Shown: positions 7,354 through 54,005 of the stretch, piece by piece
How positions within the stretch are numbered: position 1 is the first letter of the stretch
Layout: each line of letters opens with the position of its first letter
Origin: Mycobacteriales bacterium
Lineage (GTDB): Bacteria > Actinomycetota > Actinomycetes > Mycobacteriales > CADCTP01
Assembly: GCA_035995165.1 (NCBI GenBank)
Contig: DASYKU010000110.1
Span: forward strand, 1 to 56,320
Length of the DNA stretch: 56,320 bases
Reading direction: 5' to 3'
Position numbers and translations under genes: made by a program
Notes under the pieces: generated by a model
Told to the model about the DNA's origin: nothing
The model's database searches: none
What the model saw: the letters and a program-made list of their open reading frames with translations, nothing else

Positions 7354-7959
7354 TCATTTCCAGGCGAAGACCGGCTGCTCGAGGTGGGCGACGCGGGTGT
7401 GCCGGCCGTGCAGGGCGACCTGGCAGAACTGGAAGATGATGGCGGCGGTCGGCGCGTGCAGGTACCGGCCGAGGAACGGCAGCTGGATCACCGGCGCGTC
7501 CGATTCCGGGATCTGGAGCAGGCGCGGGGGCACGTCGAGATCCGCCAGCGGTACGACGTGGATCCGCTGGACCTCGGTCTCCGCGCCGGCGTAGTCGTCC
7601 CGGCCGGGACCGCCCCAGCAGACGACCGGCGTCATCACGTAGCCGGACCGGGTCACGTAGTCGTCGAGCACGCCGAGTACGTCCTCGGGGCCGAGCGCGA
7701 GACCGGTCTCCTCGGCGAGCTCCCGCAGGGCGGCACCCTCGGCGGTCTCCGCGGCGTCGCGGCGGCCGCCGGGCAGCGCCCACTGCCCGGCGTGCGCCCG
7801 GAGTCCGGCGGCTCGGCGGGTGACCAGCAGGGAGGGGACGGAGTCGGCCCGGACGACGCAGAGGGCGACCGAGGCCGCCTTCAGCTCGGGCCGGTCGCTG
7901 GGCCGCCGGTCGAAGCCGGCCAGGTTCGCGCCGATGCGGGCGCGCAGGTCCTCGCTCAT
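7354..7959 (-). CDS. Nudix hydrolase (CoA-pyrophosphatase-like)
   Basis: 201 residues. The Nudix box is complete: ALPGGRRDAAETAEGAALRE followed by LAEETGL, i.e. GX5EX7REUXEEXGU with metal-binding glutamates. The family hydrolyses nucleoside diphosphates linked to another group. Size and the context of CoA metabolism favour a CoA- or ADP-ribose-type pyrophosphatase, but no CoA-specific motif was certain. Its ATG overlaps the stop of the truncated phosphotransferase upstream (ATGA, 7956-7959), so the two are translationally coupled. Confidence 0.88.
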   Translation of the reverse strand: MSEDLRARIGANLAGFDRRPSDRPELKAASVALCVVRADSVPSLLVTRRAAGLRAHAGQWALPGGRRDAAETAEGAALRELAEETGLALGPEDVLGVLDDYVTRSGYVMTPVVCWGGPGRDDYAGAETEVQRIHVVPLADLDVPPRLLQIPESDAPVIQLPFLGRYLHAPTAAIIFQFCQVALHGRHTRVAHLEQPVFAWK

Positions 7960-8342
7960 GCCGAGCCCCGCAACGCCCGATGGGGCAGGCCGGCCAGGGC
8001 GCCGGCGTCGACCGCGATGGCCCGGTCGATCAGTTCCGGACCGATGACGGCGTCGTCGGCGCAGAACGCGTGCACCCCCGGCACCGGGACGTCGGTCTCC
8101 CGCAACGCCCGCAGGACCCGGTGTTCTCGCCGCAGGTCGTGGGCCGAGGGCAGGACGGGCCCCAGCGGCGGCCGGCGCAGCACCCACTGCCGCTCGCCCC
8201 GGGAGACGAAGAAGGTGAGGTTCGACCGGCCGCCGGGGGCGAGCTCGATGTCCGGGGGCGCCGATCCGTCGGCGCCGGCATTGCCGGCCATCCACCGCCC
8301 GAGGGCGGTCACGTCCAGCGCGCCGGGAGGAATGACGGTCAC
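7956..8342 (-). CDS. Truncated acyl-CoA-dehydrogenase-associated phosphotransferase (APH N-lobe only)
   Basis: 128 residues from GTG 8342 behind GGGAG. Residues ~30-95 match the N-lobe of FadE36-like phosphotransferases (GGRSNLTFFV, RQWVLRRPPLGPVLPSAHD, REHRVLRAL, then VPVPGVHAFCADDAVIG). Intact homologues are ~340 residues with an HGDxxxxN catalytic loop; here the chain switches at PELIDRAIAVDAGALAG and stops. An internal deletion that removed the catalytic C-lobe is the simplest reading. The product should have no kinase activity, but its ATGA overlap may preserve it as a leader for the Nudix gene. Confidence 0.65.
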   Translation of the reverse strand: MTVIPPGALDVTALGRWMAGNAGADGSAPPDIELAPGGRSNLTFFVSRGERQWVLRRPPLGPVLPSAHDLRREHRVLRALRETDVPVPGVHAFCADDAVIGPELIDRAIAVDAGALAGLPHRALRGSA

Positions 8343-8396
8343 GGTGGGCTCCCAGCGTGCGCTTCGATTGGGCGGACCGACCACCCGTACGCCTGA

Positions 8397-8414
8397 TGAG
8401 CAAGCGCTCGCTCA
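8397..8414. promoter_or_regulatory. Operator-like palindrome, site A
   Basis: TGAGCAAGCGCTCGCTCA, an 18-bp inverted repeat with one mismatched pair. It lies between the truncated phosphotransferase (minus) and the TetR regulator (plus). It shares the GAGCrrrCGCTC core with sites C and E and also resembles the KstR2-type motif AnCAAGnnCTTGnT. It is likely an autoregulatory operator for the neighbouring TetR gene. Confidence 0.55.
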
Positions 8415-8511
8415 CTGTACTATGACGGTGTCCCGCGGGCCCCGGCCCGGGCGCTCGATCGGCTACCGACCGGATCTACGCGATGAATCGGTGAGAGGGA
8501 GCGATACCGAA

Positions 8512-9150
8512 ATGCCCAAGGAATCAAGAGCTGCCGAGCAGGTGCGGGCCTTGATCTCCGGAGGTTTCTTCGACAGCCCCTGGCATTCGTCCGACGAGAA
8601 GATCTTCCGCGCCGCCCTGGAGCTCTTCGCGGAGAAGGGCTACCACGGCACCTCGACGCGGGCGATCGCGCAACGGGCCGACATGAGCCCGGGCGCCCTC
8701 TACTCCCACTACGAGTCGAAGGGCGACATCCTCTACCGCATCGTCCGGATCACCCACGAGGGCATGCTGCGCCAGCTGCAGATCGCCATGACCCGCCAGA
8801 CCGATCCGATCGAGCGACTCCGGGACCTGGTCGCCTGCCACGTGCGTTACCACGCGGAGATGAGCATCGCCGCCCGCGTGGCGAACTACGAGTTGCACTG
8901 TCTCGACCCGGACCGGATGGCGGAGATCTCCCAGCTGCGGCAGCTGATCGAGGCGACGGTGAAGGACACGCTGCTGCTCGCCGAGGGTGCCGGGCTGGTC
9001 AAGACCGGCGACATCACGCTGGCCACGATCATGGTGATATCGCTGGGCATCGACGTCTCGCGGTGGTTCCGGCCGGACCACGGAAGCAGCCCGGACGAAC
9101 TCGCCGCGTTCTACTCCGCCCACGTCATCACCATGTTCCGGGTTCCGTAG
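8512..9150 (+). CDS. TetR/FadR-type transcriptional repressor
   Basis: 212 residues with GAGGGAG upstream of ATG 8512. The N-terminal helix-turn-helix is typical: IFRAALELFAEKGYHGTSTR, AIAQRADMSPGALYSHYESK. The C-terminal ligand domain resembles the class controlling acyl-CoA catabolism genes, whose ligands are usually acyl-CoA thioesters. It is preceded by palindrome site A, faces the racemase operon, and its last 23 bp overlap that operon's last gene. It is the first candidate for the protein that binds sites A-F; the second is the TetR at 22778. Confidence 0.9.
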   Translation: MPKESRAAEQVRALISGGFFDSPWHSSDEKIFRAALELFAEKGYHGTSTRAIAQRADMSPGALYSHYESKGDILYRIVRITHEGMLRQLQIAMTRQTDPIERLRDLVACHVRYHAEMSIAARVANYELHCLDPDRMAEISQLRQLIEATVKDTLLLAEGAGLVKTGDITLATIMVISLGIDVSRWFRPDHGSSPDELAAFYSAHVITMFRVP

Positions 9151-10276
9151 GCGGCGGTCCCAGCTCGGCGAGCACGTCCTCCGTGTCGTCGCCCGGCCGC
9201 GGCGGCCGCCGGCCGATCCGCGGGGGCGTACGGCTGAAGCGCGGTGCCGGGGCCGGCTGGACGATGCCGTCGATCGTGGTGAACGTCGCCCGGGCGGCCA
9301 GGTGCGGGTGCCGCGGGGCCTCGGCCCAGTCCAGGACCGGCTGGGCGCAGGCGTCGGAGTCGCCGACCAGCGCCGCCCACTCGTCCCTGGTCCGCGTCCG
9401 GAACAGCGCGGCCCACTCGGCCCGGTGTTGCGCCCACTCCGCCGGCGGCGGCTGCCGGAACCGGTCGTCCCGGCCGGCCCGGAAGCCGGTGCGCTCGACC
9501 AGCTCGACGTAGAACCGGTCCTCGATCGCGCCGACAGCGAGGAATCCGCCGTCCGCGCAGCCGTACACGCCGTAGTAGGGGCAGGCGCCGTCGACGACGT
9601 TGGCGCCGCGCCGGTCCGTCCACTCGCCGGTGGCCCGCAGCGCGGCGAACAGCGTCGTCAGTACGGCGGTGCCGTCGACCATCGCGGCGTCGATCACCTG
9701 GCCGCGGCCGCTGCGGGTGCGCTCCAGCAGCGCGGCGAGCACGCCGACGACGAGGAACATCGCGCCGCCGCCGTAGTCGCCGACGAGGTTGAGCGGCGGG
9801 GGCGGCGGCTCGTCGGGCCGGCCGATGGCCCACAGCGCCCCGGTGAGCGCGATGTAGTCGATGTCGTGCCCGGCGCGTGCGGCGAGCGGCCCGTCCTGGC
9901 CCCAGCCGGTCATCCGCCCGTAGACCAGCCGCGGGTTCACGGCGGCACAGTCGTCCGGTCCGAGGCCGAGACGCTCCATCACCCCCGGCCGGAAGCCCTC
10001 GACGAGTACGTCGGCGCTGCCGGCCAGGCGCAGCGCCAGGTCGCGGCCCGGCCCGGACTTCAGGTCGGCGGTCACCGAGCGCTTGCCCCGGTTGACCACG
10101 TCCAGGCGCGGGTCGGGGACCGCCGTCCCGGTGCCGGGCCGGTCCACCCGGATCACGTCCGCGCCGAGGTCGGCCAGCACCATCGTCGCGAACGGGGCCG
10201 GACCGATGCCGCCCACCTCGACCACCCGTACGCCGCTCAGCGGTCCACCCGGACCGTCCTCTGTGGACGGTGTCAC
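9128..10276 (-). CDS. mcr: Alpha-methylacyl-CoA racemase (CoA-transferase family III fold)
   Basis: 382 residues from GTG 10276, which overlaps the stop of the hydratase before it (GTGA). The start GVRVVEVGGIGPAPFATMVL and ADLGADVIRVDRPG are the CaiB/BaiF fold signature. Residues used by M. tuberculosis MCR are recognisable: His in RAGHDIDYIALTG, Asp in NLVGDYGGG, Glu in VGAIEDRFY. This favours racemase over CoA transferase. It would interconvert 2R and 2S methyl-branched acyl-CoAs so that the S form can enter beta-oxidation, which implies a methyl-branched substrate for the island. It is the last gene of the 14981-9128 operon and converges with the TetR gene. Confidence 0.87.
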   Translation of the reverse strand: MTPSTEDGPGGPLSGVRVVEVGGIGPAPFATMVLADLGADVIRVDRPGTGTAVPDPRLDVVNRGKRSVTADLKSGPGRDLALRLAGSADVLVEGFRPGVMERLGLGPDDCAAVNPRLVYGRMTGWGQDGPLAARAGHDIDYIALTGALWAIGRPDEPPPPPLNLVGDYGGGAMFLVVGVLAALLERTRSGRGQVIDAAMVDGTAVLTTLFAALRATGEWTDRRGANVVDGACPYYGVYGCADGGFLAVGAIEDRFYVELVERTGFRAGRDDRFRQPPPAEWAQHRAEWAALFRTRTRDEWAALVGDSDACAQPVLDWAEAPRHPHLAARATFTTIDGIVQPAPAPRFSRTPPRIGRRPPRPGDDTEDVLAELGPPPTEPGTW

Positions 10277-11064
10277 CGGGCACGCCAGACCGGGGCGCGC
10301 TTCTCCGCGAACGCCGCGAGCCCCTCCCGGGTGTCCTCGGTCCGCAGCATCTCCGCCGCCAGCCGGAGCGAGCGCTCCCAGGCCGCGGCCTCCCCGGGCA
10401 CCCCGTCGGGGTCGAGCCCGAGCGCGATCGTCTTGCTCGCCCGGACGGCGAGCGGCGCGTTCCGGCCGATCCGCTCGGCCAGCTCCAGCGCCGCCGGCAG
10501 CACCTCCGCCGCCGGGACGACCCGGTTGACCAGCCCCATCTCCAGGGCCCGCGCGGCCGGGACCGGCTCGCCGGTCAGGATGAGCTCCATGGCCAGCTTG
10601 CGGGGTACCTGGTCGGGCAGCCGGAAGACCCCGCCCGCGGCGGCGATGAGACCGCGGCGGACCTCGGGCAGCCCGAACGACGCCTCCTGCGAGGCCACCG
10701 CCAGGTCGCTCGCCAGCACGAGCTCGGTCCCGCCGCCGAGCGCGAAGCCGTTCACCGCCGCGATCGTCGGGGTCGCGACCGGGTGCGAGACCCACCCGGC
10801 GAAGCCCCACGCGGCCCGCGGGCCGTCGGCCGGCTTGACCGGCTCACCGCGGGCGACGGCCTTCAGATCGGCGCCGGCGCAGAACGAGAGCCGGCCCGCG
10901 CCGGTCAGCACGATCGCCCGGATCTCCGGGTCGCGGTCGGCCGCCTCCAGCGCGTCGCCGAGCGCGACCGACACCGCCAGGTCGACGGCGTTGCGCGCCT
11001 CGGGCCGGTTGATCGTGAGCACGACCGTGTGGCCGTGCCGCTCACTGAGTACGACAGGCGTCAT
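10273..11064 (-). CDS. Enoyl-CoA hydratase/isomerase family protein
   Basis: 263 residues, the usual crotonase length, from ATG 11064 (ATGA overlap with the previous gene). Oxyanion-hole segments are present: TGAGRLSFCAGADLKAV and NGFALGGGTELVLASDLAV. The second catalytic-Glu region reads GLPEVRRGLIAAAGGVFRLP. It likely hydrates a trans-2-enoyl-CoA in beta-oxidation. It is the fifth gene of the operon beginning with the thiolase. Confidence 0.9.
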   Translation of the reverse strand: MTPVVLSERHGHTVVLTINRPEARNAVDLAVSVALGDALEAADRDPEIRAIVLTGAGRLSFCAGADLKAVARGEPVKPADGPRAAWGFAGWVSHPVATPTIAAVNGFALGGGTELVLASDLAVASQEASFGLPEVRRGLIAAAGGVFRLPDQVPRKLAMELILTGEPVPAARALEMGLVNRVVPAAEVLPAALELAERIGRNAPLAVRASKTIALGLDPDGVPGEAAAWERSLRLAAEMLRTEDTREGLAAFAEKRAPVWRAR

Positions 11065-40606: not shown

Positions 40607-41566
40607 TCAGGGAGCGGGTGGGAGGTTCTGGACGTGCTGGAAGCCGAAGCGGCCCTTGATGCAGAGGTGGCCGTGGGTGACCGAGTGGTCCGCCGGGCTG
40701 GTGACGTTGACGATCGAGTTCTGCTGGACGTGCAGTTCCAGGTTGCAGCCGACGCCGCAGAACGAGCAGATGGTCGTGGTGACGACCTCCTCGTCGGGGT
40801 GCCAGTCGTCGGCCTCGCGCAGCTCGTGCTCGCGGACGGACTTCAGGGCTCCGGTAGGGCAGACGCCGATGCAGTTGCCGCAGTAGACGCAGGCGGACTC
40901 GGGCAGCTCCGCGTTGAACTCGGTCGCGATGCGCGCGTCGAAGCCGCGGCCGGCGGCCGCGATCGCGAAGGTGAACTGGGCGTCCGTACCGCAGGCCTTG
41001 ACGCACTTGTAGCACATGATGCAGCGGGAGTAGTCCCGTACGTAGAGGTCGTTGTCGACCTTCACCGGCTGCTCGACCGTCGCGGCCGTCGTGCCGTCGG
41101 GGGCGTGGTGGTGGCCGGCGTGCCGGGAGTCGCGGTCGGTCGAGGGTGGTGCCGGCGGGCCGTAGCGGGCCGCGTCGACCCCGTACGCGCCCATCCAGCG
41201 CTGGACGTCCGGGCTGGCCTGGGACATGTCCGCGGACGAGGCCAGCAGCTCCAGCACCATCCGGCGGCTGTGCCGCACCTTCTCCGAGTCGGTGCGCACC
41301 ACCATCCCGTCCTCGGCCTTGCGCGCGCAGGACGGCACCAGCGCCCGGGAGTTCTCGACCTCCACCACGCACACCCGGCAGGCGTTGACCGGGTTCAGGT
41401 TCGGCGCCCAGCACAGCGTCGGGGTGTCGGCCTGCTCGGGCGTGCCCTGGTCGTGCAGCGCGTCCAGGATCGTCGCGCCCTCGGGTACGCGGACCTCCGT
41501 GCCGTCGATGGTCAGGGTGACCAGGCGGCCGATCTGCCCCAGCATCACCGGGCTGGTAACGGTCAT
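40607..41566 (-). CDS. Formate dehydrogenase iron-sulfur subunit (N-terminal half of the alpha chain)
   Basis: 319 residues. Cysteine motifs in order: a NuoG-type [2Fe-2S] domain (TLCWAPNLNPVNACRVCVVE with CARK), two [4Fe-4S] ferredoxin motifs (CIMCYKCVKACG; CVYCGNCIGVCP), and CSFCGVGCNLEL with HGHLCIKGRFGFQHV. The last is the [4Fe-4S] module that normally begins a molybdopterin formate dehydrogenase. The protein stops right after it (NLPPAP), and the sequence that should follow opens the catalytic gene at 45324. Electrons pass from the Mo site to this chain and on to the FMN subunit. Its ATG shares one base with the previous stop (TGATG). Confidence 0.9.
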   Translation of the reverse strand: MTVTSPVMLGQIGRLVTLTIDGTEVRVPEGATILDALHDQGTPEQADTPTLCWAPNLNPVNACRVCVVEVENSRALVPSCARKAEDGMVVRTDSEKVRHSRRMVLELLASSADMSQASPDVQRWMGAYGVDAARYGPPAPPSTDRDSRHAGHHHAPDGTTAATVEQPVKVDNDLYVRDYSRCIMCYKCVKACGTDAQFTFAIAAAGRGFDARIATEFNAELPESACVYCGNCIGVCPTGALKSVREHELREADDWHPDEEVVTTTICSFCGVGCNLELHVQQNSIVNVTSPADHSVTHGHLCIKGRFGFQHVQNLPPAP

Positions 41567-43413
41567 CAGTGCGGACCCCTTCCCGTGCGCGAGCCGTTGA
41601 GCGAGGGCGGTGCGTCGAGCAGACCCAGCGACAGCGCGGAGCGGATCGCCGCCGGCGCGGTCTGCCCGAGCCCGCAGATCGAGGCGTCCTGCATGACCCG
41701 GGCCAGGTCGTCGAGCAGCGCGAGCTCGGTGTCCCGCGAGCCGATCGGAGCGTTGCGCTCCAGCCGGGCCAGCGCCTCCTCCTGCCGGACGGTGCCCACC
41801 CGGCAGGGCACGCACTGCCCGCAGGACTCGTCGCGGAAGAACGCGGCGATGCGCCGCAGGGTACCGGTGAGGTCCGCGGCGGTGTCGAAGGCCATCACGA
41901 CGCCCGAGCCCAGCGTGGCGCCGATCTCGCGGGCGCCCTCCAGGGTCAGCACGACGTCGAGCTGGTCGGGCGGGACGAACCCGCCCGCCGCGCCGCCGAG
42001 CAGGATCGTGCGCAGCTCCCCGCGGATCCCGCCGGCGAGCACGAGCAGCTCGCGCAGCGTGGTGCCGAACTCCACCTCGTAGACACCGGGCGTGCCGACC
42101 GCACCGGACACGCAGAACAGCTTGGTCCCGGTGGAGCGCCCGCCGCCGATCGACGCGAACGCCGGCCCGCCGACGGCGAGCACCTCGAGCACGTTGTAGA
42201 GCGTCTCGACGTTGTTGATCACCGTGGGCTTGCCGAACAGCCCGCTCACGCTCGGGAACGGCGGCTTGTTGCGGGGCTCGCCGCGGAAGCCCTCGATCGA
42301 GTTGAGCAGGGCGGTCTCCTCGCCGCAGATGTACGCCCCCGCGCCGCGGCGCAGCTCGATGTCGAACGCGAACCCCTCGCCCATGACGTCGTCGCCGAGG
42401 TAGCCGCGCAGCCGGGCCGCCGCGATCGCCGTCTCCAGCCGCCGGGTGGCCAGCGGGTACTCACCGCGGATGTAGAGGTAGCCGCGCTCGCAGCCGGCGG
42501 CGTACCCGGCGATCGTCATCGCCTCGATCAGGCCGAACGGGTCGCTCTCCATGAGGACCCGGTCCTTGAACGTGCCGGGCTCGGACTCGTCGGCGTTGCA
42601 GACCAGGTAGTGCGGCCGCTCCGGCGCCTTGGCGACGCCGTCCCACTTCATCCCGGTGGGGAACGCGGCGCCGCCGCGACCGGTCAGCGACGCGTCCGTG
42701 ATCTCCCGGACGACCCGGCCGGCGCCCATCTCGACCGCCCGCCGCAGGGCCGTGTAGCCGCCGGCGGCGCGGTAGCTGTCCAGGCTCTCCGGGTCGACGA
42801 CCCCGACGCGGCGCAGCAGCCGCAGTCCCGCCTGCCCGGTCTGCGGAACGCTCACCGAGGTGTCGCCGAACGCCGCGTCCGCCGCGGCGAAGTCGGCGCC
42901 CAGGACGGTCTCGGTACGGGCCGGGGCCAGGCTGAAGTCCGGCGCGCCGGCCCGCTGGAACAGCACCGCCGGCGCCCGCTCGCACAGCCCGAGGCACGGG
43001 CTGCGTACCACGGTGGACTGCTCGGGATCGAGGCCGTCGAGCCCGGCGATGATCTCCTCACCGCCGAACGGGCCGCAGGCCACGTCGTCGCAGACATGCA
43101 CGACGCGGGGCGGCCGGGGCTCGGTCGAGAACATCGCGTAGAAGGTCGCGACCCCGTACACGTCGGCCGGGGGGACGGCGAGCACCCGGGCGACGTGGTT
43201 CAGCGCCCCCGGGCTGATGTGGCCCACCGCGTCGGACACCGCGTGCAGCGCCGGGAGCAGCATGTGCCGCCGTCCCCGGGCCGCGTGGCCGCCGTCCACG
43301 AACCGCCGGTCGGGTCCCGGTACGTCGTCGGCGCCGCGGAGCGCGTCGAAGACCGCGTCGACGACCTCGGTCTCCTGCGGGGTCGCTTCGGCATCGGACA
43401 GGCGAAGATCCAC
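41566..43413 (-). CDS. Formate dehydrogenase NAD/FMN subunit (NuoE-NuoF fusion)
   Basis: 615 residues from GTG 43413, directly after the catalytic gene stop. Residues ~20-165 are NuoE-like with a [2Fe-2S] site (CDDVACGPFGGEE; CLGLCERAP). Residues ~195-600 are NuoF-like: GRGGAAFPTGMKWDG and GAGAYICGEETALLNSIEG bind FMN and NADH, and ESCGQCVPCRVGTVR plus a downstream Cys (CGLGQTAP) hold the N3-type [4Fe-4S] cluster. This is the diaphorase part of a soluble NAD-dependent formate dehydrogenase, with E and F fused as in several actinobacteria. Confidence 0.93.
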   Translation of the reverse strand: MDLRLSDAEATPQETEVVDAVFDALRGADDVPGPDRRFVDGGHAARGRRHMLLPALHAVSDAVGHISPGALNHVARVLAVPPADVYGVATFYAMFSTEPRPPRVVHVCDDVACGPFGGEEIIAGLDGLDPEQSTVVRSPCLGLCERAPAVLFQRAGAPDFSLAPARTETVLGADFAAADAAFGDTSVSVPQTGQAGLRLLRRVGVVDPESLDSYRAAGGYTALRRAVEMGAGRVVREITDASLTGRGGAAFPTGMKWDGVAKAPERPHYLVCNADESEPGTFKDRVLMESDPFGLIEAMTIAGYAAGCERGYLYIRGEYPLATRRLETAIAAARLRGYLGDDVMGEGFAFDIELRRGAGAYICGEETALLNSIEGFRGEPRNKPPFPSVSGLFGKPTVINNVETLYNVLEVLAVGGPAFASIGGGRSTGTKLFCVSGAVGTPGVYEVEFGTTLRELLVLAGGIRGELRTILLGGAAGGFVPPDQLDVVLTLEGAREIGATLGSGVVMAFDTAADLTGTLRRIAAFFRDESCGQCVPCRVGTVRQEEALARLERNAPIGSRDTELALLDDLARVMQDASICGLGQTAPAAIRSALSLGLLDAPPSLNGSRTGRGPH

Positions 43414-45324
43414 TCAGTTCCCACTCCCGGCCGGAGCCTTCTCGATCCGTACGGCCGTCGCCTTGAACTCCGAGGTCCCCGACTTGGGGTCCCAGGCGTC
43501 GTTGGTGAGGACGTTGACGTCGACCTCCTCGGTGAAGTGCGGCGTGAACGACGCGAGCCCGGGCCGCAGGGACCGGTCCAGCCACACCGGTGCCTGCACC
43601 GACCCCCGCCGGGACGTGACGAGGACGTGGTCGCCGTTGGCGATGCCCAGCCCGGCGGCGTCGGTCGCGTCCATCCGCAGCGACTCCTGGCGGCGCAGCG
43701 GCGAGCTGTACCCGCCGGTCTGCACGCCGGAGTTGTAGCCGTCGAGCACCCGGACGGTGGTGAGCCGGATCGGGTACTCGGGCGTGAGCGTGTCCACCGG
43801 CGGCACGTGCTCCACCGGCGTGAACGGTGCCGGCGTCCCGAGAGCCTCGCCGGACGCCCACAGCCGCGCGTGCAGCATCGGCGTACCCGGGTGGTCGAGC
43901 TCGGGGCACGGCCACTGGAGGCCGCCGAGCTCGTCGAGCCGGGCGTAGCTCATGCCCTGGTGCCAGTTGAGCGAGACCGAGCGCAGCTCGTCCCAGACCT
44001 GCTCGGCGGTCGGCTGGCCCCAGTCGTGACCCATCCGGTCGGCGATCGCACAGATGATGTGCGTGTCCGGGCGGGCCTGGCCGGGTGGGTCGAGGGCCTT
44101 GCGGATGCGCTGCACGCGCCGTTCGGAGTTGGTGACGGTGCCCTCGTACTCGCACCAGTCGGCCGCGGCCGGCAGCACCACGTCGGCCATGTCGGCCGTC
44201 GCGGTCCGGAAGATGTCCTGCACGACCAGGTGGTCGAGCCCTTCGAGCATCTTGCGCGCGTGGCCGGCGTTGGCCTCGGACTCGGCCGGGTTCTCCCCGA
44301 TGCAATACAACGCCTTGAGCTGGCCGGTCTCCATGGCCTCGAACATCTGGGACAGGTGCATGCCGGTCTTCGGCGGGATGGTGGCGCCCCAGACCTTCTC
44401 GAAGCGGTCGCGGGCGACGTCGTCGGCGAGGTCGTAGCCGCCCGGCAGCTTGGACGGGATGGCGCCCATGTCGCCGCCGCCCTGCACGTTGTTCTGCCCG
44501 CGCAGCGGGACGAGGCCCGAGCCGTAGCGCCCGACGTGCCCGGTGAGCAGCGCCAGGTTGATCAGCGCGAACACGTAGTCGGCCGCGTTGTGGTGCTCGG
44601 TGATGCCCAGCGTCCAGCAGATCTGGGCCCGGTCGGCCCGCGCGTACGCATGCGCCAGCTCCCGGATCAGCACGGCCGGGACCTTGGTGATCTCCTCACC
44701 GCGCTCCAGCGTGTAGGGCTCGACCGTGGCCTTGTAGTCCTCGAACCCGGACGTGGCCCGGCCGACGAAGGCCTCGTTGGCCAGGCCGGCGTGGATGATC
44801 TCCCGCCCGATGGTGTTGGCCAGCGCGATGTCCGTGCCCACGTCGAGGCCCAGCCAGCCGTCGGCCCACTGCGCCGTGGACGTCCGGCGGGGATCCACCG
44901 AGTACATCCGGCAGCCGCGCTTCAGCCCCTGCAGGGCATGGTGGAAGAAGATCGGGTGCGTCTCGCGTGCGTTCGAACCCCACAGGATCAGCAGGTCGGC
45001 GTGCTCAGCTTCCTCGTACGCCGAGGTGCCGCCACCCGCTCCGAAGACTGTCGTCAGACCGACGACGGAAGGAGCGTGTCAAGTTCGGTTGCAGGAGTCG
45101 ACGTTGTTACTGCCCATCACCGCTCGCGCGAACTTCTGCGCGGTGTAGTTCATCTCGTTCGTGGCCTTGGAGCAGCTGAACATGCCGAACTCGTCCGGCC
45201 CGACGCCGCGGAAGCCGGCGGCGGCCCGGTCCAGTGCTTCGTCCCAGGTGGCGGGGCGGAGCACGCCGTTCTCCCGCACCAGCGGCTCGGTGATCCTGAC
45301 GTGACGGGGACGGCGACGCCTCAT
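43414..45324 (-). CDS. fdhA: Selenocysteine-containing formate dehydrogenase, molybdopterin catalytic subunit
   Basis: 636 residues if the in-frame UGA at 45081-45079 (codon 82) is read as selenocysteine. ATG 45324 has GGAGGG five bases upstream. Before the UGA the frame reads FSCSKATNEMNYTAQKFAR and NNVDSCNRT; after it, HAPSVVGLTTVFGAGGG, WGSNARETHPIFFHHALQG and VDPRRTSTAQWADGWLGLDV, with no frame change. Sec falls exactly where E. coli FdhF has Sec140 (V-U-HGPSVAGL) and Cys homologues have T-C-HAPSV. C-terminal motifs (LPAAADWCEYEGTVTNSERR; LTTVRVLDGYNSGVQTGG) are standard. The usual N-terminal [4Fe-4S] domain is absent and encoded at 40607. It oxidises formate to CO2. Gene callers will split it at the UGA. 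Confidence 0.92.
45037..45081 (-). promoter_or_regulatory. UGA(Sec) codon and SECIS-like hairpin
   Basis: Directly after the UGA, the minus-strand RNA can fold: CGCUCC (45076-45071) pairs with GGAGCG (45042-45037), and GUCGUC (45066-45061) pairs with GACGAC (45055-45050), leaving the apical loop GGUCU (45060-45056). In E. coli fdhF the SelB-binding loop is also GGUCU and also begins at nucleotide 19 after the UGA. Sequence, loop and spacing therefore agree with a bacterial SECIS element. Synonymous choices here (GTC GTC ... ACG ACA) appear to preserve the stem. Confidence 0.88.
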
Positions 45325-47129: not shown

Positions 47130-49559
47130 TCAGGTGGCGGGGATGAGGGTGTCGGTGGTCGCGGTGTAGTCGGTCTGGTGGACCTGGCCGTCCAGGTCGA
47201 TGCGGGTGCTGCGGTGCCGGAAGGTGCGCCGGGCCGGGTTGTGGATGGCGATGTGGACGTCGCGGGTCGCGACGTCGGTGCCGGCGAACTCCACCCGCAG
47301 CGTGCGGTGGTAGGCGGCGTCCGGGTCCTCGTACTCGAGGTCGATCGCGACGCTGCGGACCGTCGCGGGGTTCCAGGCCGGGACGATGCTGATGTCCAGG
47401 CGTGCGGCGAACGGGTCCACGACCGCGACCCGGGTGGACGTGGTCGTCACCGGGTCGGTCGTGACGACGGAGCCGTCCGGGAGCGTGTGCACGAAGCGGT
47501 ACGTGAACTCCTGATGCGTACGGTCGGGCATCCGGATCCGCCAGGTCTGCACCGGGCTGTCGGCCTTCACCGTCAGCGTCGAGTGCTGCTCCCAGCCGCC
47601 GGGGTCGGCGTACGTCAGCTGCACCTCGGTGAACGAGAGGGAGTCGGGGTCGATGTCGGTGGGCTCGACCGTGACCTCCAGGAAGCCCAGCCGGCGGGAC
47701 GGGTCCAGCTCCAGGGTCCGGTCGTCCGTCTCGCCGCTGAACGTGTACGAGATGTCCTGGGCGTGCCACGGGCCGGACGCCGCGAAGTTGTACTCGACGC
47801 GGTACCGGTAGTCCATGTCCAGGGCGGCGTTCATGAACGGCGTGAACTGCTGGGTGCCGGTGTGCGCCTGGTCGAAGATCAGGTCCGTGGTCTTCGGACC
47901 GCCCGGATCGTCGTCCCGGCCGTAGCTGAGGGCGACGTTGATGCTGACCAGCCCGAGCGCGGCGAAGTCGACGCCGCACTGCACGTCCACGGTGAAGACC
48001 CGGAAGAACGGGTCGTCCAGGTCGACATCCAGGAAGTGGGTCGGGCCGGAGAGGGACCCGGCCAGCTCGCTGAAGAAGCCCTGCGGGGCGTAGACGCGCT
48101 GGACGGCCTCGGAGCGGTCCAGTTCCAGCGAGACGTGCTTCTGCTCGGTCTTGCTGACGTACTTCAGCTTGAACGAGACCAGGGCCGAGCTGCCGCCGGC
48201 CGGAAGGCCGCCGGCTCCGGGCGTGCCCGTCGCGCCGGGCGGACGGACCGGGCCGGCCGGGGGAGTCGCGGTTCCGCCGGGCGGGCGGACCGGGCCGGCC
48301 GGCGGAGTGCCGGTGGCACTGCCGACCTGGCCGCCGCCGAGGGCGCCCGAGACCGCGTTGCCGACCGCGGCACCGACGGCGGTCCCGAGCGGGTTGCCCG
48401 CCGCGCCGGCGGCCGGGATCGCGCCGCCGGGCGGGATGGCGCCGCCGGGCGGGACGGGTCCGCCGGGCGGGATGGCGCCGCCGGGCGGGATCGCGCCGCC
48501 GGGCGGGACGGGTCCGCCGGGCCGTACGGGTCCTCCCGGCGGGACCGGACCTCCGGGCGGGACGGGCCCTCCGGGCGGGACGGGCCCTCCGGGCGGGACG
48601 GGCCCGCCGGGCGGGACGGGCCCGCCGGGCGGGACGGGCCCGCCGGGCGGCGTCGGAGGCCGTACCACCCCGGCGGGCGGCGGCTGCACCAGCGGCGGCC
48701 GGACCACGCCCGGCGCCGCCCCCACGGCCGGCGCCGGCGTCGTCGGCGTCGACCCGGGCGACAGCGACGGCTCGAACCAGTCCTTCAGCAGCTTGTCGCG
48801 GAAGAAGTCCAGGGCCCACTGCTCCTGCGTCGACACCTGGTTGTCCGGTACGAAGTCGGCCACGGTGATCTTGATCGCCCCGGTCTGCTTGAGCCATTCG
48901 AACGCGGCTTCCAGACCCGCCTTCACCCAGTACACCTGGGCTTCCAGGCCCACCGAGAGCTGCTGGTAGCAGACGGCGAGGTCGGCCTCGATCGTGACGT
49001 GCAGGGCCGGCCGCAGCCCGGTGAAGGTGAGCTCGTAGATCACCCCGATCGGCGCGGCGCCCTGCTGGAACGCCTGCTTCAGGATGGTGGCGCCGGTGGT
49101 CGACAGCTTCAGGCTGAACGCGGCCTGGTTGTCGCCGTACAGCGAGGGCACCGACGCGCCGAGGATCTCCTCCACGGCGACGAAGGCACCCGGCGTCGCG
49201 GTGGTGCCCGCGGACCCCTGCACGTTCAGGGCGATGCACTGCACCTCGCCCTGGTCGAACGGGACGGGCGAGAGCACCGGCCGCCCCGGCGCCAGCTGCT
49301 CCAGCTGAGCCTTGATCGACTCCGCCTCGCCGGCGTCCAGCCGCAGGTCGACCTCGAACATGAGGAACCCGCCGCCCCGGCCGCCCTCGTCGACGGCCGC
49401 GTTGCGGAAGGTGATCAGCGTGAACTCCGGCTCGTCGGTGACCGGCCGGTGGGCCAGCCGGACGGGCGCCGGCAGGTACCAGAACAGGTTCTCGTCGGCG
49501 TGGTCGCGGAAGACCGTGACGCCGTCGATCACCAGTGAGCTCGCTCCGAGCTGCAGCAT
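47130..49559 (-). CDS. Unrecognised paralog-family protein with PPGGPV repeat (paralog 1)
   Basis: 809 residues, GAGGGG before ATG 49559. No known domain was recognised. The N-terminal module (1-245) shares with its neighbours a pattern DGVTVFRDHADENLFWYLPA, GGGFLMFEVDLRLD, PSLYGDNQAAFSLKLSTTGA and PIGVIYELTFTGLRPA. A proline-glycine linker follows (~265-375, hexapeptide repeat), then beta-rich repeats starting DLDDPFFRVFTVDV, with recurring strands of the type TYADPGGWEQHSTLTV. No signal peptide or membrane helix is visible. It is the last gene of a four-gene operon. The collagen-like linker suggests a long flexible spacer between two folded parts. Confidence 0.85.
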   Translation of the reverse strand: MLQLGASSLVIDGVTVFRDHADENLFWYLPAPVRLAHRPVTDEPEFTLITFRNAAVDEGGRGGGFLMFEVDLRLDAGEAESIKAQLEQLAPGRPVLSPVPFDQGEVQCIALNVQGSAGTTATPGAFVAVEEILGASVPSLYGDNQAAFSLKLSTTGATILKQAFQQGAAPIGVIYELTFTGLRPALHVTIEADLAVCYQQLSVGLEAQVYWVKAGLEAAFEWLKQTGAIKITVADFVPDNQVSTQEQWALDFFRDKLLKDWFEPSLSPGSTPTTPAPAVGAAPGVVRPPLVQPPPAGVVRPPTPPGGPVPPGGPVPPGGPVPPGGPVPPGGPVPPGGPVPPGGPVRPGGPVPPGGAIPPGGAIPPGGPVPPGGAIPPGGAIPAAGAAGNPLGTAVGAAVGNAVSGALGGGQVGSATGTPPAGPVRPPGGTATPPAGPVRPPGATGTPGAGGLPAGGSSALVSFKLKYVSKTEQKHVSLELDRSEAVQRVYAPQGFFSELAGSLSGPTHFLDVDLDDPFFRVFTVDVQCGVDFAALGLVSINVALSYGRDDDPGGPKTTDLIFDQAHTGTQQFTPFMNAALDMDYRYRVEYNFAASGPWHAQDISYTFSGETDDRTLELDPSRRLGFLEVTVEPTDIDPDSLSFTEVQLTYADPGGWEQHSTLTVKADSPVQTWRIRMPDRTHQEFTYRFVHTLPDGSVVTTDPVTTTSTRVAVVDPFAARLDISIVPAWNPATVRSVAIDLEYEDPDAAYHRTLRVEFAGTDVATRDVHIAIHNPARRTFRHRSTRIDLDGQVHQTDYTATTDTLIPAT
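48418..48651. repeat. Thirteen tandem 18-bp units encoding PPGG(P/A)(V/I)
   Basis: Thirteen consecutive 18-bp units, e.g. GGGCCCGCCGGGCGGGAC, encode the hexapeptide PPGGPV, with PPGGAI and one RPGGPV variant on the minus strand. The units nearest 48651 are almost identical in DNA, whereas those nearest 48418 vary at several positions, as expected of recent expansion at one end by slippage. The tract is a likely site of length variation between strains. Confidence 0.9.
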
Positions 49560-49571
49560 GGCGCAGTCCCC

Positions 49572-51827
49572 TCAGTCGCGCGCGACGGCCAGGTCGGTGG
49601 CCCGCGTCTGCGTCCAGCCCCTGGTCTTCTTCAGGCCGTTGGTGTGGTGGTAGGTCAGCCGGTACCGGTAGGACGGGTCGTCGGTGTAGTCGAGCCCGAA
49701 GGTCTGCGGCGGTCCGCCCGGCACGAACGTGAGCTCGGCCAGCGGGGTCTCCGAGTCCAGCGGCGCGGCCGTCACGACCACGTCCCGCAGGCCGGTGGCG
49801 TCGGCTCCGGCGAGGTCGGCCGAGACCATGACCACGTTGTGCCGCGGCAGGTCGGGCCGGACGATCAGCCGGGTGTCCACTGTGGACGACGGTCCGGCCG
49901 CGACCGAACGGCCGTCGTGGTAGAGGATCGTGGCCTTCCAGGTGACCCGGCGTTCCTGCGGGTCCTGCAGGTCGACGCTGAAGGTCTGGGTGGCGTTCGC
50001 CTGGGTGGTGAACTCCATCGACTGGTCATAGCTGACGCCGTGCGGCGTGTTCTCGTAGTGCAGGTCGACGAACATCCGGTCGATCTGGGTCCAGTCGACC
50101 TGGGGGCTCACCGAGATCGTGCGCTTGGCCGGGAACGGATCGCGGATCCGGATCTCGCCCTCGTCGGTGCTCGTCCAGTCCTGCAGATGGTCCTGGCGGC
50201 CGTCCGCGCCGAGGTAGCGCACGCGGTAGTCGAAGGCGGCGGACGCGCCGGCCATCACGAACTGCACGTAGTTCCAGCCCGGCACGGCGGCGGACAGCTC
50301 GACCGTGGACTGCTGCAGTACGTCGTGCTGCGGGTCCGCGTACCGCAGCGAGACCTCCAGCGAGGACCAGCGGTCCCACGGCACGCCCTCGGTCCGGATC
50401 GGGACCGTCTCCAGCCGGAACAGGTCGTCGGTCCGGACCTCCCAGACCTCGGTGTCGTTCGGCTGCGGCTGGGTGTGCAGGGTCAGCGGGCGCTGCAGGT
50501 CCTCGACCTGGGTCAGGTTCACCGTGAGCGAGACCTGGACCGGCATGTCCATCCGGTCGCCGTCGAGGACCGACGTCCAGTCGACCTCCTTGTCCACGCC
50601 CGGGCCGTCGATCACCACCGACTTCGCCTGGTCGTGGTAGCGGAGCTCGGCGTCCACCGAGGAGATGTGGCCGGTGCCGGTGTCCACTCTGGACAGAACC
50701 CGGACCATGCGCCGCTGGAACCACGGGTCGTCCAGGTCGATGTCGTTGACGAAGGTCGGCGTCCGCGGCAGCCCGGAGGCGGCGATGGTGGCGGCGATCG
50801 CGTTCAGGTGGCCCTGTGGGTAGATCGAGCGCTTGACCGTGACGCGCTCGCTCATCGTGACGTCCAGCCGCTTCTTGTCGATCCGGCTGTAGTGGGTCTG
50901 GTTGTAGTGGAACGAGGGCAGCAGGCCGCCGCCGGTGGCGTGCTGCCGGTTCCAGGTCTCGAGCAGCTCGGTGGCCTTGTCCCAGCCGTCCGGCTGCGGC
51001 TTGGTGGGGTCGATGGTGGCCGTGAAGAACGCGTCGGTGATCATGTCGCGGACCTCGGCCACCGCGCGGTCCCGGCTGGTGATGACCGACTTGGTGTCCT
51101 CGCCCTCCGGCACGAACGTGTCGACCTGCAGGTCGATGACCCGGTCCTCGATGAGCTTGTCGACCGCGTCGGAGATCTCGGTGGAGAAGAACGCCGAGTC
51201 GACGCCGAAGCTCGTGTCCAGCCGGTCCTGCAGCCGGTCCCAGTCGATGTGCAGCCGGACCGAGTACGCCGGGCGCAGGGCGAGGAAGCTCAGCGAGTAC
51301 ACGACGCCGATCGGCGCCAGCTCGCCGTCCAGCGATCGGACCACGAGCACGGACGAGTCCTGGTCCAGCTCGGCCGAGACGGCGGCGCGGTTGGTGCCGT
51401 ACAGGCTCGGCTTGGCCGGGTGCGAGATCTTCACGACGAACCGGGGGGAGCCGTCCGGGGCCGGTGCCGCGGCGGCGTCGTCCTGGGTGCCGAGGATCGT
51501 GAGGTTGACGGTGCCGTCCTCGAGCGGCACCGGCACCAGCCGCGGTACGTCGGTCAGGTGCAGCGCGTTGCGGATCGCCTGCGCGGCGCCGGTGAGCACG
51601 TCCTGGTCGACCCGCAGGTCGACGTCGAAGTTCAGCATCCCGCCGTTGTGGCCGGCGCCGGACTTGAAGCGCAGCAGGGAGAACGCGGGGATCTCCCGGC
51701 CCTGGTCGTCCACCCGGACCGACAGCCGCGGCTGGGCCGGCAGGTAGTACCACTGCAGCGGGTCGGCGTGGTCGGGATAGCAGGTGAGCCCGTCCACCGC
51801 GACGTACGGGGGGTTCAGGTAGAGCAT
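49572..51827 (-). CDS. Unrecognised paralog-family protein (paralog 2)
   Basis: 751 residues, perfect AGGAGG six bases before ATG 51827. The N-terminal module repeats the family pattern: DGLTCYPDHADPLQWYYLPA, QPRLSVRVDD, NGGMLNFDVDLRVDQD, PSLYGTNRAAVSAELDQDSS, APIGVVYSLSFLALRPAYSV. A central region with IDLDDPWFQRRMVRVL opens a series of beta-sandwich-like repeats, each with a strand resembling YNYVQFVMAGASAAFDYRVR and aspartate-rich turns. No signal peptide, membrane helix or catalytic motif is seen. It lacks the PPGGPV linker of paralog 1. Function unknown. Confidence 0.85.
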   Translation of the reverse strand: MLYLNPPYVAVDGLTCYPDHADPLQWYYLPAQPRLSVRVDDQGREIPAFSLLRFKSGAGHNGGMLNFDVDLRVDQDVLTGAAQAIRNALHLTDVPRLVPVPLEDGTVNLTILGTQDDAAAAPAPDGSPRFVVKISHPAKPSLYGTNRAAVSAELDQDSSVLVVRSLDGELAPIGVVYSLSFLALRPAYSVRLHIDWDRLQDRLDTSFGVDSAFFSTEISDAVDKLIEDRVIDLQVDTFVPEGEDTKSVITSRDRAVAEVRDMITDAFFTATIDPTKPQPDGWDKATELLETWNRQHATGGGLLPSFHYNQTHYSRIDKKRLDVTMSERVTVKRSIYPQGHLNAIAATIAASGLPRTPTFVNDIDLDDPWFQRRMVRVLSRVDTGTGHISSVDAELRYHDQAKSVVIDGPGVDKEVDWTSVLDGDRMDMPVQVSLTVNLTQVEDLQRPLTLHTQPQPNDTEVWEVRTDDLFRLETVPIRTEGVPWDRWSSLEVSLRYADPQHDVLQQSTVELSAAVPGWNYVQFVMAGASAAFDYRVRYLGADGRQDHLQDWTSTDEGEIRIRDPFPAKRTISVSPQVDWTQIDRMFVDLHYENTPHGVSYDQSMEFTTQANATQTFSVDLQDPQERRVTWKATILYHDGRSVAAGPSSTVDTRLIVRPDLPRHNVVMVSADLAGADATGLRDVVVTAAPLDSETPLAELTFVPGGPPQTFGLDYTDDPSYRYRLTYHHTNGLKKTRGWTQTRATDLAVARD

Positions 51828-51860
51828 GGTCGACCTCCTGGAGGCGAGCGGTGGCGGGGG

Positions 51861-54005
51861 TCAGACCGGGGGCAGCGGCGGCAGGACGAGCTCGAGGTCG
51901 TCGGTGCTCGCCTCGGCCAGCGGCCGCTGGCTGCCGTCCTTGAGGTAGTACACGGCCGACATCGAGTAGTCGCGCGGCGAGCTCTTGTCCGGCAGCTCGA
52001 CCGTCCACGTCACCGAGGTGCCGTCGCGGAAGAGGAGGTCCTTGTCCTGGCGGGTGTCCGGATCGGTGCCGTACCGCAGGGCCACCCGCACCAGCGCGAC
52101 CTGGCTGAAGTCGATCAGGTCCGGGACCACGGTGACGGCCAGCTTCCGCTCGACGTGCTCGCCGATCGTGATGGTGCCGGTGGTGGCGGTCGTCGGCTCG
52201 ATCGTCTCGACGGTCCCGTCCTGGCGGCGGATGCTCCCGCTGTAGGTCACCGTTCCGGCGGCATGGTCGAGCACCGGGAACGACCAGTCGAGGAACGTGT
52301 TGTCCTTGTCCAGCGCGCCGGAGAAGTGCGTCGAGTAGTCGTTGGGCGCGTCGGTGTAGGTCAGGTCGACCATGATCGACTCGATCTCGGTGCTGAGGTC
52401 GCCCTCGGCGACGACCATCACCTGGCGCAGGTCGTTGAAGGGCGAGTTCACGTAGATCTGGCGGGCGGTCTCGCGCCACGGGGTCGACAGCGTCTTGCCG
52501 TCGGCGGTCCGGTAGTCGATCTTGTACGTCACCGCGTTCGTCCGCGGTTCGAAGATCGCCTTCTCCAGCCGGTGGGTCGGGTGGCCGGAGTCCAGGACGT
52601 ACTGCTCCTCGATGGGGGGCAGCGTCGATGGCGTGTAGCGCACGGTCACCAGGGCGGTGGGGATCTTGGCGAAGTCGATGTTGCCGGCGGTGACGTCGAC
52701 CAGCAGCAGGCCGGTGTCGTCGACGCCGATCGTCAGCTCTTCCAGCTTGCTGGTCCGCGCGGCCACCTCGTACGGCTGGGCGGTGTCCTTGAAGTTGACC
52801 CGGTAGCTGTACCGGTACTCCGGCGGCTTGCCGTCCAGGAAGCAGGAGAACGTGCCGGTGTCGTCGGCCTTGCCGAAGTGGAGGTCCTGGACCACAGGGT
52901 GGTTGCCGTCGAACTCCAGGTGGACGTCGACGCTGTGGATCGGCAGGTTCTCCAGGTCCGCGTTCAGCCGGACGGTCACGTCGAGGGTGCGGAAGAACGG
53001 GTCGTCCAGGTCGATCGTCTGCGCGTAGTCCCCCCACACGATCGGCTTTCCGCCGCCGTCGGTGAGCGAGGTGATGTTCGGCAGGGTGCCCTGCGGGTTG
53101 AAGGGCCAGAGGCTGGCGCTGCTCTCGGTGATCGTGTAGCTGAAGTCGTCGATCTTGATCTTCTTGTAGCTGCGCCGGATGTCCTCGTAGTCCTCGATCA
53201 TCCCGCGGTCGCCGTCGTACTGGCCGAGCTGTTCGAGCATCTTCTTCGCGACCGTCTGCTCCAGCGTGTTCATCAGGCTGGCGCGGATGTTGTCGACGAC
53301 GGTGGTGTTGGTGACGATGCTCGAGGTGATCTCGACCTTCATGACCTCGGACGACCGGATCTTCTCCTGGATCTCCTCGGTCCGCAGGTCGTCACCGCAG
53401 GTGGGGTTGTCGTCGGTGATGTGCTGGACGAACTCGTAGTACTTGTTCGAGTGGAAGCTCGCGGTGCCGCTGATCGGCGGGAGCTTGACCCAGGCGTTCA
53501 TCTCGTAGCTGACCTGGATCACGCCGCCGCTGCCCTGCAGGGCCTGCTCGAAGAAGGTGGCCCCCTCCTGCGAGAGCTCCATCGTGAACGGCGTGATGTT
53601 GTTGCCGAACAGCGACGGGCTCATCGGGTTGGTCACCGACTCGATCAGCATGCCGCCGTCGGAGACGAAGTTCAGCTTGGCCGTGCCCTTGGCCCACTGG
53701 ATGGTGCCCAGCTTGACCTTGGCGCCCGGCCGGGCCCGGCCGGCCTGGGCGGTCAGGTCCGCGATGATCTTCGTACGGACGTCCTCGTCGACCGCGAACT
53801 CCGCGTCGAAGATGATGAAGCCGCCGCCGAACGAGCCGTCCGGACGCTTGCGGGGGCTGCGGAACTTCAGGTACTTGAACACCAGCTTGCCCTGGTTCCA
53901 GCGGAACCGCGGCTGCTCGGGCAGGACGTAGTAGGTCAGCTCGTCCCGGTCGTCGCCGTACACCTGCAGGCCCTGCAGGGTCTGCACCTGGTCGATCTTC
54001 AACAT
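51861..54005 (-). CDS. Unrecognised paralog-family protein (paralog 3)
   Basis: 714 residues, GGGAG before ATG 54005. Family features: LQVYGDDRDELTYYVLPEQP, GGGFIIFDAEFAVDEDVRTK, SPSLFGNNITPFTMELSQEG, and TIDLDDPFFRTLDVTVRLNA at about residue 335. The middle contains a charged helical segment (TEEIQEKIRSSEVMKVEITS) with MKVEITSSIVTNTTVV that neighbours lack. The C-terminal half is tandem beta-rich repeats (ALVTVRYTPSTLPP, SIMVDLTYTDAPNDYST, LVRVALRYGTDPDTR), each of about 95 residues. Spacing to its neighbours is short, so the four genes form one operon. Confidence 0.85.
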   Translation of the reverse strand: MLKIDQVQTLQGLQVYGDDRDELTYYVLPEQPRFRWNQGKLVFKYLKFRSPRKRPDGSFGGGFIIFDAEFAVDEDVRTKIIADLTAQAGRARPGAKVKLGTIQWAKGTAKLNFVSDGGMLIESVTNPMSPSLFGNNITPFTMELSQEGATFFEQALQGSGGVIQVSYEMNAWVKLPPISGTASFHSNKYYEFVQHITDDNPTCGDDLRTEEIQEKIRSSEVMKVEITSSIVTNTTVVDNIRASLMNTLEQTVAKKMLEQLGQYDGDRGMIEDYEDIRRSYKKIKIDDFSYTITESSASLWPFNPQGTLPNITSLTDGGGKPIVWGDYAQTIDLDDPFFRTLDVTVRLNADLENLPIHSVDVHLEFDGNHPVVQDLHFGKADDTGTFSCFLDGKPPEYRYSYRVNFKDTAQPYEVAARTSKLEELTIGVDDTGLLLVDVTAGNIDFAKIPTALVTVRYTPSTLPPIEEQYVLDSGHPTHRLEKAIFEPRTNAVTYKIDYRTADGKTLSTPWRETARQIYVNSPFNDLRQVMVVAEGDLSTEIESIMVDLTYTDAPNDYSTHFSGALDKDNTFLDWSFPVLDHAAGTVTYSGSIRRQDGTVETIEPTTATTGTITIGEHVERKLAVTVVPDLIDFSQVALVRVALRYGTDPDTRQDKDLLFRDGTSVTWTVELPDKSSPRDYSMSAVYYLKDGSQRPLAEASTDDLELVLPPLPPV

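Follow-up and report, generated by a model that had tools for sequence, protein, structure and literature searches.

The whole stretch of DNA analysed here (56,320 nucleotides, referred to as the window) carries on its minus strand a formate dehydrogenase catalytic gene whose reading frame is crossed by a TGA, raising the question of whether this codon ends the gene or is read as selenocysteine (Sec). The frame (43414..45324) runs from an ATG at 45324, preceded at 3 nt by a ribosome-binding site read from the sequence (GGAGGG, 45333-45328, minus strand), to a stop codon at 43416-43414, and the TGA at codon 82 (45081-45079) is its sole break. Reading through this codon yields a protein of 636 residues with molybdopterin and dinucleotide-binding domains, in which Sec82 stands in the context ...SCNRT-U-HAPSVVGL.... 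An earlier, sequence-only reading of the window had placed a single UGA at this NRT-U-HAPSV site and had foreseen that automated annotation would call a truncated 81-residue ORF and a headless dehydrogenase. Both points hold, and translation table 11 indeed yields an 81-aa ORF (45079-45324) and a headless 497-aa frame (43414-44907, with its ATG at 44907).

Selenocysteine machinery in the genome

The same reading had implied that the organism has selA, selB, selC and selD, with selB and tRNA-Sec as the decisive pair, and a search of the window's genome (G000; 5.37 Mb in 162 contigs) recovered both of these as well as the other components. A tRNA-Sec with a UCA anticodon was found at C62:3058-3149 (72.3 bits, cut-off 47), adjoined on the opposite strand by a selD-like gene in Cys form. 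At its end, contig C62 holds selA and the front portion of selB; the remainder of selB runs from base 4 of contig C82, and fdhD comes next at C82:1335-2078. The product of the latter scored 145.8 bits against TIGR00129 (cut-off 140.9), identifying it as an FdhD sulfurtransferase that would be available for the cofactor, while selD and selA were recognised by reading translations. The selA-selB-fdhD cluster is therefore probably cut inside selB by an assembly gap, and tRNA-Sec, SelA, SelB and SelD are all encoded in this genome. The selD and tRNA-Sec genes lie ~20 kb from the selA-selB end of C62.

Conservation of the UGA and its hairpin

Scanning the named genomes and 395 genomes of the class revealed TGA at codon 82 in 78 genes (the window's included) and TGC or TGT at the same codon in 26 close homologues, so that the UGA stands where homologues have Cys. 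The 77 other TGA loci come from several phyla, and the whole frame downstream of the codon is conserved in them at 62-87% identity. This conservation across loci, together with a constraint on synonymous sites that was seen only in TGA genes (see below), refutes the idea that the gene is dead or of the Cys type and that its TGA arose by nonsense mutation or by a sequencing error. We attach virtually no probability to it, even if TGA is a stop in table 11 and the window's hairpin taken alone is no better than chance. The sequence-only reading had judged a nonsense mutation improbable at this residue and had named a TGC or TGT at the codon as refuting; the 77 further TGA loci speak against such an error.

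The distribution of tRNA-Sec followed that of the codon, since matches of at least 53 bits occurred in 28/32 other genomes with the UGA form versus 4/26 carrying the Cys form (p 3e-8 by Fisher's test, which ignores kinship). The four UGA-form genomes with no such match are all draft or metagenome assemblies, and the tRNA-Sec is probably missing from them because these assemblies are incomplete. Four genomes (G132, G154, G208 and G227) combine a Cys-type operon with a strong tRNA-Sec, and these probably use Sec in other proteins.

The candidate bSECIS hairpin directly behind the UGA (45037..45076, minus strand) consists of a lower stem (45076-45071/45042-45037), an upper stem (45066-45061/45055-45050) and a GGUCU loop (45060-45056). 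The loop has its first base at nt 19 behind the TGA, and the annotated fdhF gene of E. coli carries the identical loop at the identical 19-nt distance (a match in 5,368 E. coli genomes), in agreement with the likeness that the sequence-only reading had pointed out. A second UGA formate dehydrogenase of the window's genome (L017; G000:C91, about 18.3-19.3 kb), which is of the long type with an intact N-terminal CPYCAVGC domain and reads ...NQARI-U-HSSTVPGLG, likewise has its GGTCT loop at nt 19.

Taken by itself, however, the window sequence was not decisive for a SECIS element. Its hairpin folded no better than shuffled sequences (z -0.59), with an energy that is ordinary for the composition, and the pattern TGA-N18-GGTCT is expected 1.19 times by chance in a window of such make-up and is thus not significant. 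Rfam yielded no matches in the window at gathering scores; the SECIS_3 family aligned in the right register but reached only 14.3 bits against a gathering score of 63, so this model was not taken as proof.

It is the comparison with relatives that decides. Among 189 four-fold degenerate codon sites in the 78 TGA genes, exactly five were invariant, and these are the consecutive codons 87-91 (GUC, GYC, GGU, CUG, RCG) that make up the upper stem and loop. All five sites vary in the 26 Cys genes, where GGT is never used. Because the amino acids are nearly equal in TGA and Cys genes, the constraint acts on the RNA. In the homologue alignment, the upper stem was paired in 99.7% of cells, and its pair 45062/45054 occurs as U-A, U-G and C-G, which constitutes covariation at one pair. 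Pairing is weaker in the lower stem (81.6% of cells). Changes on both sides of a pair were counted in 22 cells of the whole structure, a number reached by none of 500 shuffles in a control that ignores kinship. A hairpin with a G/U-containing apical loop has thus been kept as RNA directly behind the UGA, as expected of a selenoprotein gene, and the SECIS claimed earlier from a single sequence stands on the comparison of TGA with Cys genes, not on the fold of the window or on the family model.

These data also bear on the reading in which the UGA is a true stop and the 81-aa peptide and the headless dehydrogenase act as separate proteins, the latter from the later ATG that opens the 497-aa frame. 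A protein initiated there would be without its active site and would retain the cofactor pocket only in part, homologues carry Cys at codon 82 and read on, and the invariant hairpin would be left without a reason, so that we consider the chance of a true stop to be next to nil. The predicted Sec82 in a single read-through protein is retained below.

The displaced [4Fe-4S] domain

The read-through protein has the catalytic domain of a formate dehydrogenase alpha subunit with its Sec/Cys-His pair, residue 82 (Sec or Cys) and H83 being invariant among the aligned catalytic proteins. It aligned with positions 52-672 of the TIGR01591 profile (E 2.3e-186), leaving positions 1-51 unmatched and the score of 620.8 below the cut-off of 666.25. 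A Pfam search of the catalytic protein found Molybdopterin and Molydop_binding, and no Molybdop_Fe4S4. In an AlphaFold model (pLDDT 77.6), the protein matched E. coli FdhH at residues 55-696 (Z 39.3, 2.5 A over 597 residues) and FdsA at residues 305-938 (Z 34.9, 2.9 A over 610 residues), both times again without the N-terminal domain.

Two further genes follow on the minus strand. The second (41566..43413) starts with a GTG directly behind the stop codon of the catalytic gene and encodes a NuoE-NuoF fusion of 615 aa with a thioredoxin-like [2Fe-2S] domain, an FMN/NADH-binding domain and a [4Fe-4S] site (PF01257, PF01512, PF10531, PF10589), a fusion that is also present in Methylorubrum extorquens FDH1. 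The operon hence holds the NuoE- and NuoF-like diaphorase parts of an NAD+-dependent formate dehydrogenase. The third gene (40607..41566), whose start overlaps the NuoEF stop (TGATG), encodes an iron-sulfur subunit of 319 aa. Besides a [2Fe-2S] motif and two ferredoxin-type [4Fe-4S] motifs, this protein has at its C-terminal end the formate dehydrogenase alpha [4Fe-4S] domain that the sequence-only reading had overlooked. This Molybdop_Fe4S4 domain (CxxCxxxC...CxK) lies at 40625..40783 on the minus strand (PF04879, E 2.6e-19), and residues 265-314 of the third protein matched positions 1-50 of TIGR01591. When both proteins were aligned with the single chain of Rhodobacter capsulatus FdsA (PDB 6tg9), the third protein covered residues 22-303 and the catalytic protein residues 307-933, placing the break between FdsA residues 303 and 307. 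Modelled by itself with AlphaFold, the third protein gave a low-confidence structure (pLDDT 54). On the other side of the catalytic gene, at 47130-54005 (minus strand), the window holds three neighbouring ORFs of 809, 751 and 714 aa with no Pfam match; the 809- and 751-aa ORFs have similar-looking N-termini, and the former contains a PPGGPV repeat of ~100 residues.

The arrangement recurred among relatives. Wherever a homologous locus extended as far as a visible third gene (69/69; 67 Sec, 2 Cys), the order was catalytic, NuoEF, FeS, and in each of these loci the third gene ends with CxxCxxxC...CxK. The four cysteines and the lysine of this motif (C267, C270, C274, C302 and K304) were invariant in an alignment of 19 third proteins, as were all ligand cysteines. 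A His-Cys3 (N5-like) cluster motif was absent from 69/69 split third genes, and is no distinguishing mark since, by the pattern used, it is also missing from 15 of 18 fused genes. At one UGA locus, L098 from a Chloroflexi metagenome assembly, no third gene lay within reach, and about 2.6 kb of unrelated genes (7911-10515) separates the catalytic gene from NuoEF. By eye, the inserted genes include an ORF resembling DUF262 and a pair of toxin-antitoxin type; the locus also has a second NuoF-like ORF further on.

N-termini are often lost in one-genome annotations, and the missing domain might in principle reflect a wrong start, a frameshift or an assembly break in one genome, with the Sec part being right. 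Against this stand the strong ribosome-binding site at the ATG, the absence of CxxCxxxC from the 150 codons upstream of Sec/Cys in 104/104 catalytic genes, the constant place of the domain at the end of the third gene, and the fact that no homologue found in the clade carries the domain on the catalytic gene itself, which together make such an artefact extremely unlikely. The pairing of the terminal domain with the catalytic subunit is predicted from sequence, and the domain might serve another partner. We regard this as very unlikely given the conserved operon order, the overlap of genes two and three, and the fused homologues that hold both halves as one chain, with the split falling at FdsA 303/307. 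The alpha subunit is accordingly split into two polypeptides, encoded in permuted order.

The fused homologues (18 loci, with the FeS and catalytic halves in one chain) indicate how this order may have come about. They show two orders, NuoEF-[FeS-cat] and [FeS-cat]-NuoEF, and comparison of L132, L137, L138, L140, L149 and L150 with L046-L050 and L139 revealed that the formate dehydrogenase operons of this class represent three cyclic rotations of one order (NuoEF-FeS-cat, FeS-cat-NuoEF and cat-NuoEF-FeS). The last of these would be obtained if the operon were duplicated in tandem and the copies then lost opposite ends. In a tree of the catalytic domain, for which the program warns of long branches, all split-type genes included, Sec and Cys, formed one clade (45 rows, support 100/100), which besides Actinomycetota also holds metagenome bins labelled Chloroflexota, Planctomycetota, Eremiobacterota and others. 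Within it, an 11-row Cys clade is set apart from the Sec rows, with the Sec side weakly supported. At E 1e-150, plasmid records gave no match. On one contig of Pseudonocardia parietis DSM 45256, the Sec formate dehydrogenase operon occurs twice (L061 and L062), ~380 kb apart.

Proposed working and relation to known enzymes

In all, the three genes very probably form an operon for a cytoplasmic NAD+-dependent formate dehydrogenase with Sec recoding and a split alpha subunit, the recoding and the gene split both being evident from the comparison among relatives. SelB with Sec-tRNA(Sec) would bind the hairpin just behind UGA 82, leading to insertion of Sec as the active-site metal ligand; SelB-dependent insertion of a Sec at the metal is established for E. 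coli FdhH, from which we infer it for the window's enzyme. The fused homologues, the exact break point and the shared operon suggest that the catalytic protein assembles with the third gene product into one FdsA-like unit. Known enzymes pass electrons from the cofactor to the [4Fe-4S] cluster of domain I by way of a conserved lysine (Lys44 in FdhH). Here, both this first cluster and the conserved lysine that lies between it and the cofactor would come from the C-terminal domain of the third protein, so that the first electron transfer would cross a subunit boundary. Electrons would then pass via two ferredoxin-type clusters and a [2Fe-2S] cluster to the NuoEF protein and on to NAD+. The bis-MGD content, the catalytic direction and NAD+ as partner are likewise proposed.

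The operon shares its domains (catalytic, FeS relay, NuoE and NuoF) with FdsABG of R. capsulatus (PDB 6tg9/6tga) and FDH1 of M. extorquens (7vw6/8j83). In those enzymes, however, FeS relay, proximal [4Fe-4S] and catalytic domains form one alpha chain, whereas the window operon has two chains, a permuted gene order and Sec. Because the alpha subunit is divided over two genes, we describe the operon as working like FdsABG, as a split variant and not as FdsABG itself. With E. coli FdhF, the catalytic protein has in common the Sec at the same site, the loop at the same distance and the FdhH fold, but FdhF, a component of formate hydrogenlyase, holds the [4Fe-4S] domain within the catalytic chain itself, while the window's enzyme has this domain on the third protein.

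The Sec enzyme as such belongs to a kind that is already published. The main text of PMC7176365 describes three Sec formate dehydrogenases in Actinomycetospora chiangmaiensis DSM 45062, one of which, FDH3 (FdhA3/FdhB3/FdhC3), has subunits of 640 (Sec), 614 and 316 aa that were all present in the proteome, is called a cytoplasmic, NAD+-dependent formate dehydrogenase and has a predicted SECIS. Compared by this description only, the window operon (636 with Sec, 615 and 319 aa) consists of the same three genes with similar sizes and Sec in the first. Moreover, the Actinomycetospora congeners L063 and L069 carry the same operon, with catalytic genes 84 and 82% identical to the window's, and FDH3 is thus the apparent counterpart of the window's Sec enzyme. 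In A. chiangmaiensis, formate accumulates without selenite and hardly does so with selenite, indicating selenium-dependent formate removal (PMC7176365).

The sequence-only interpretation was therefore supported with respect to Sec and incomplete in missing both this precedent and the displaced domain, and it is the split alpha subunit that deserves further attention. The split is not discussed in the main text of PMC7176365 (no occurrence of 'split'), and no description of it was found in the open-access literature, which is weak evidence of absence. Chances seem about even that we are dealing with a clade, undescribed as such, in which a circular operon permutation has put the relay lysine and the first [4Fe-4S] cluster with its four cysteines on another polypeptide than the Se/Mo active site, so that the first electron step crosses a subunit boundary.

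In the matched formate dehydrogenases of known structure, active site and first cluster reside in one chain, and the split offers a testable case with both on separate chains, which could help formate dehydrogenase engineering by module exchange. Automatic annotation has two obstacles to recognising the catalytic gene, its UGA and its missing domain, so that Sec-dependent formate oxidation in aerobic actinobacteria is easily overlooked.
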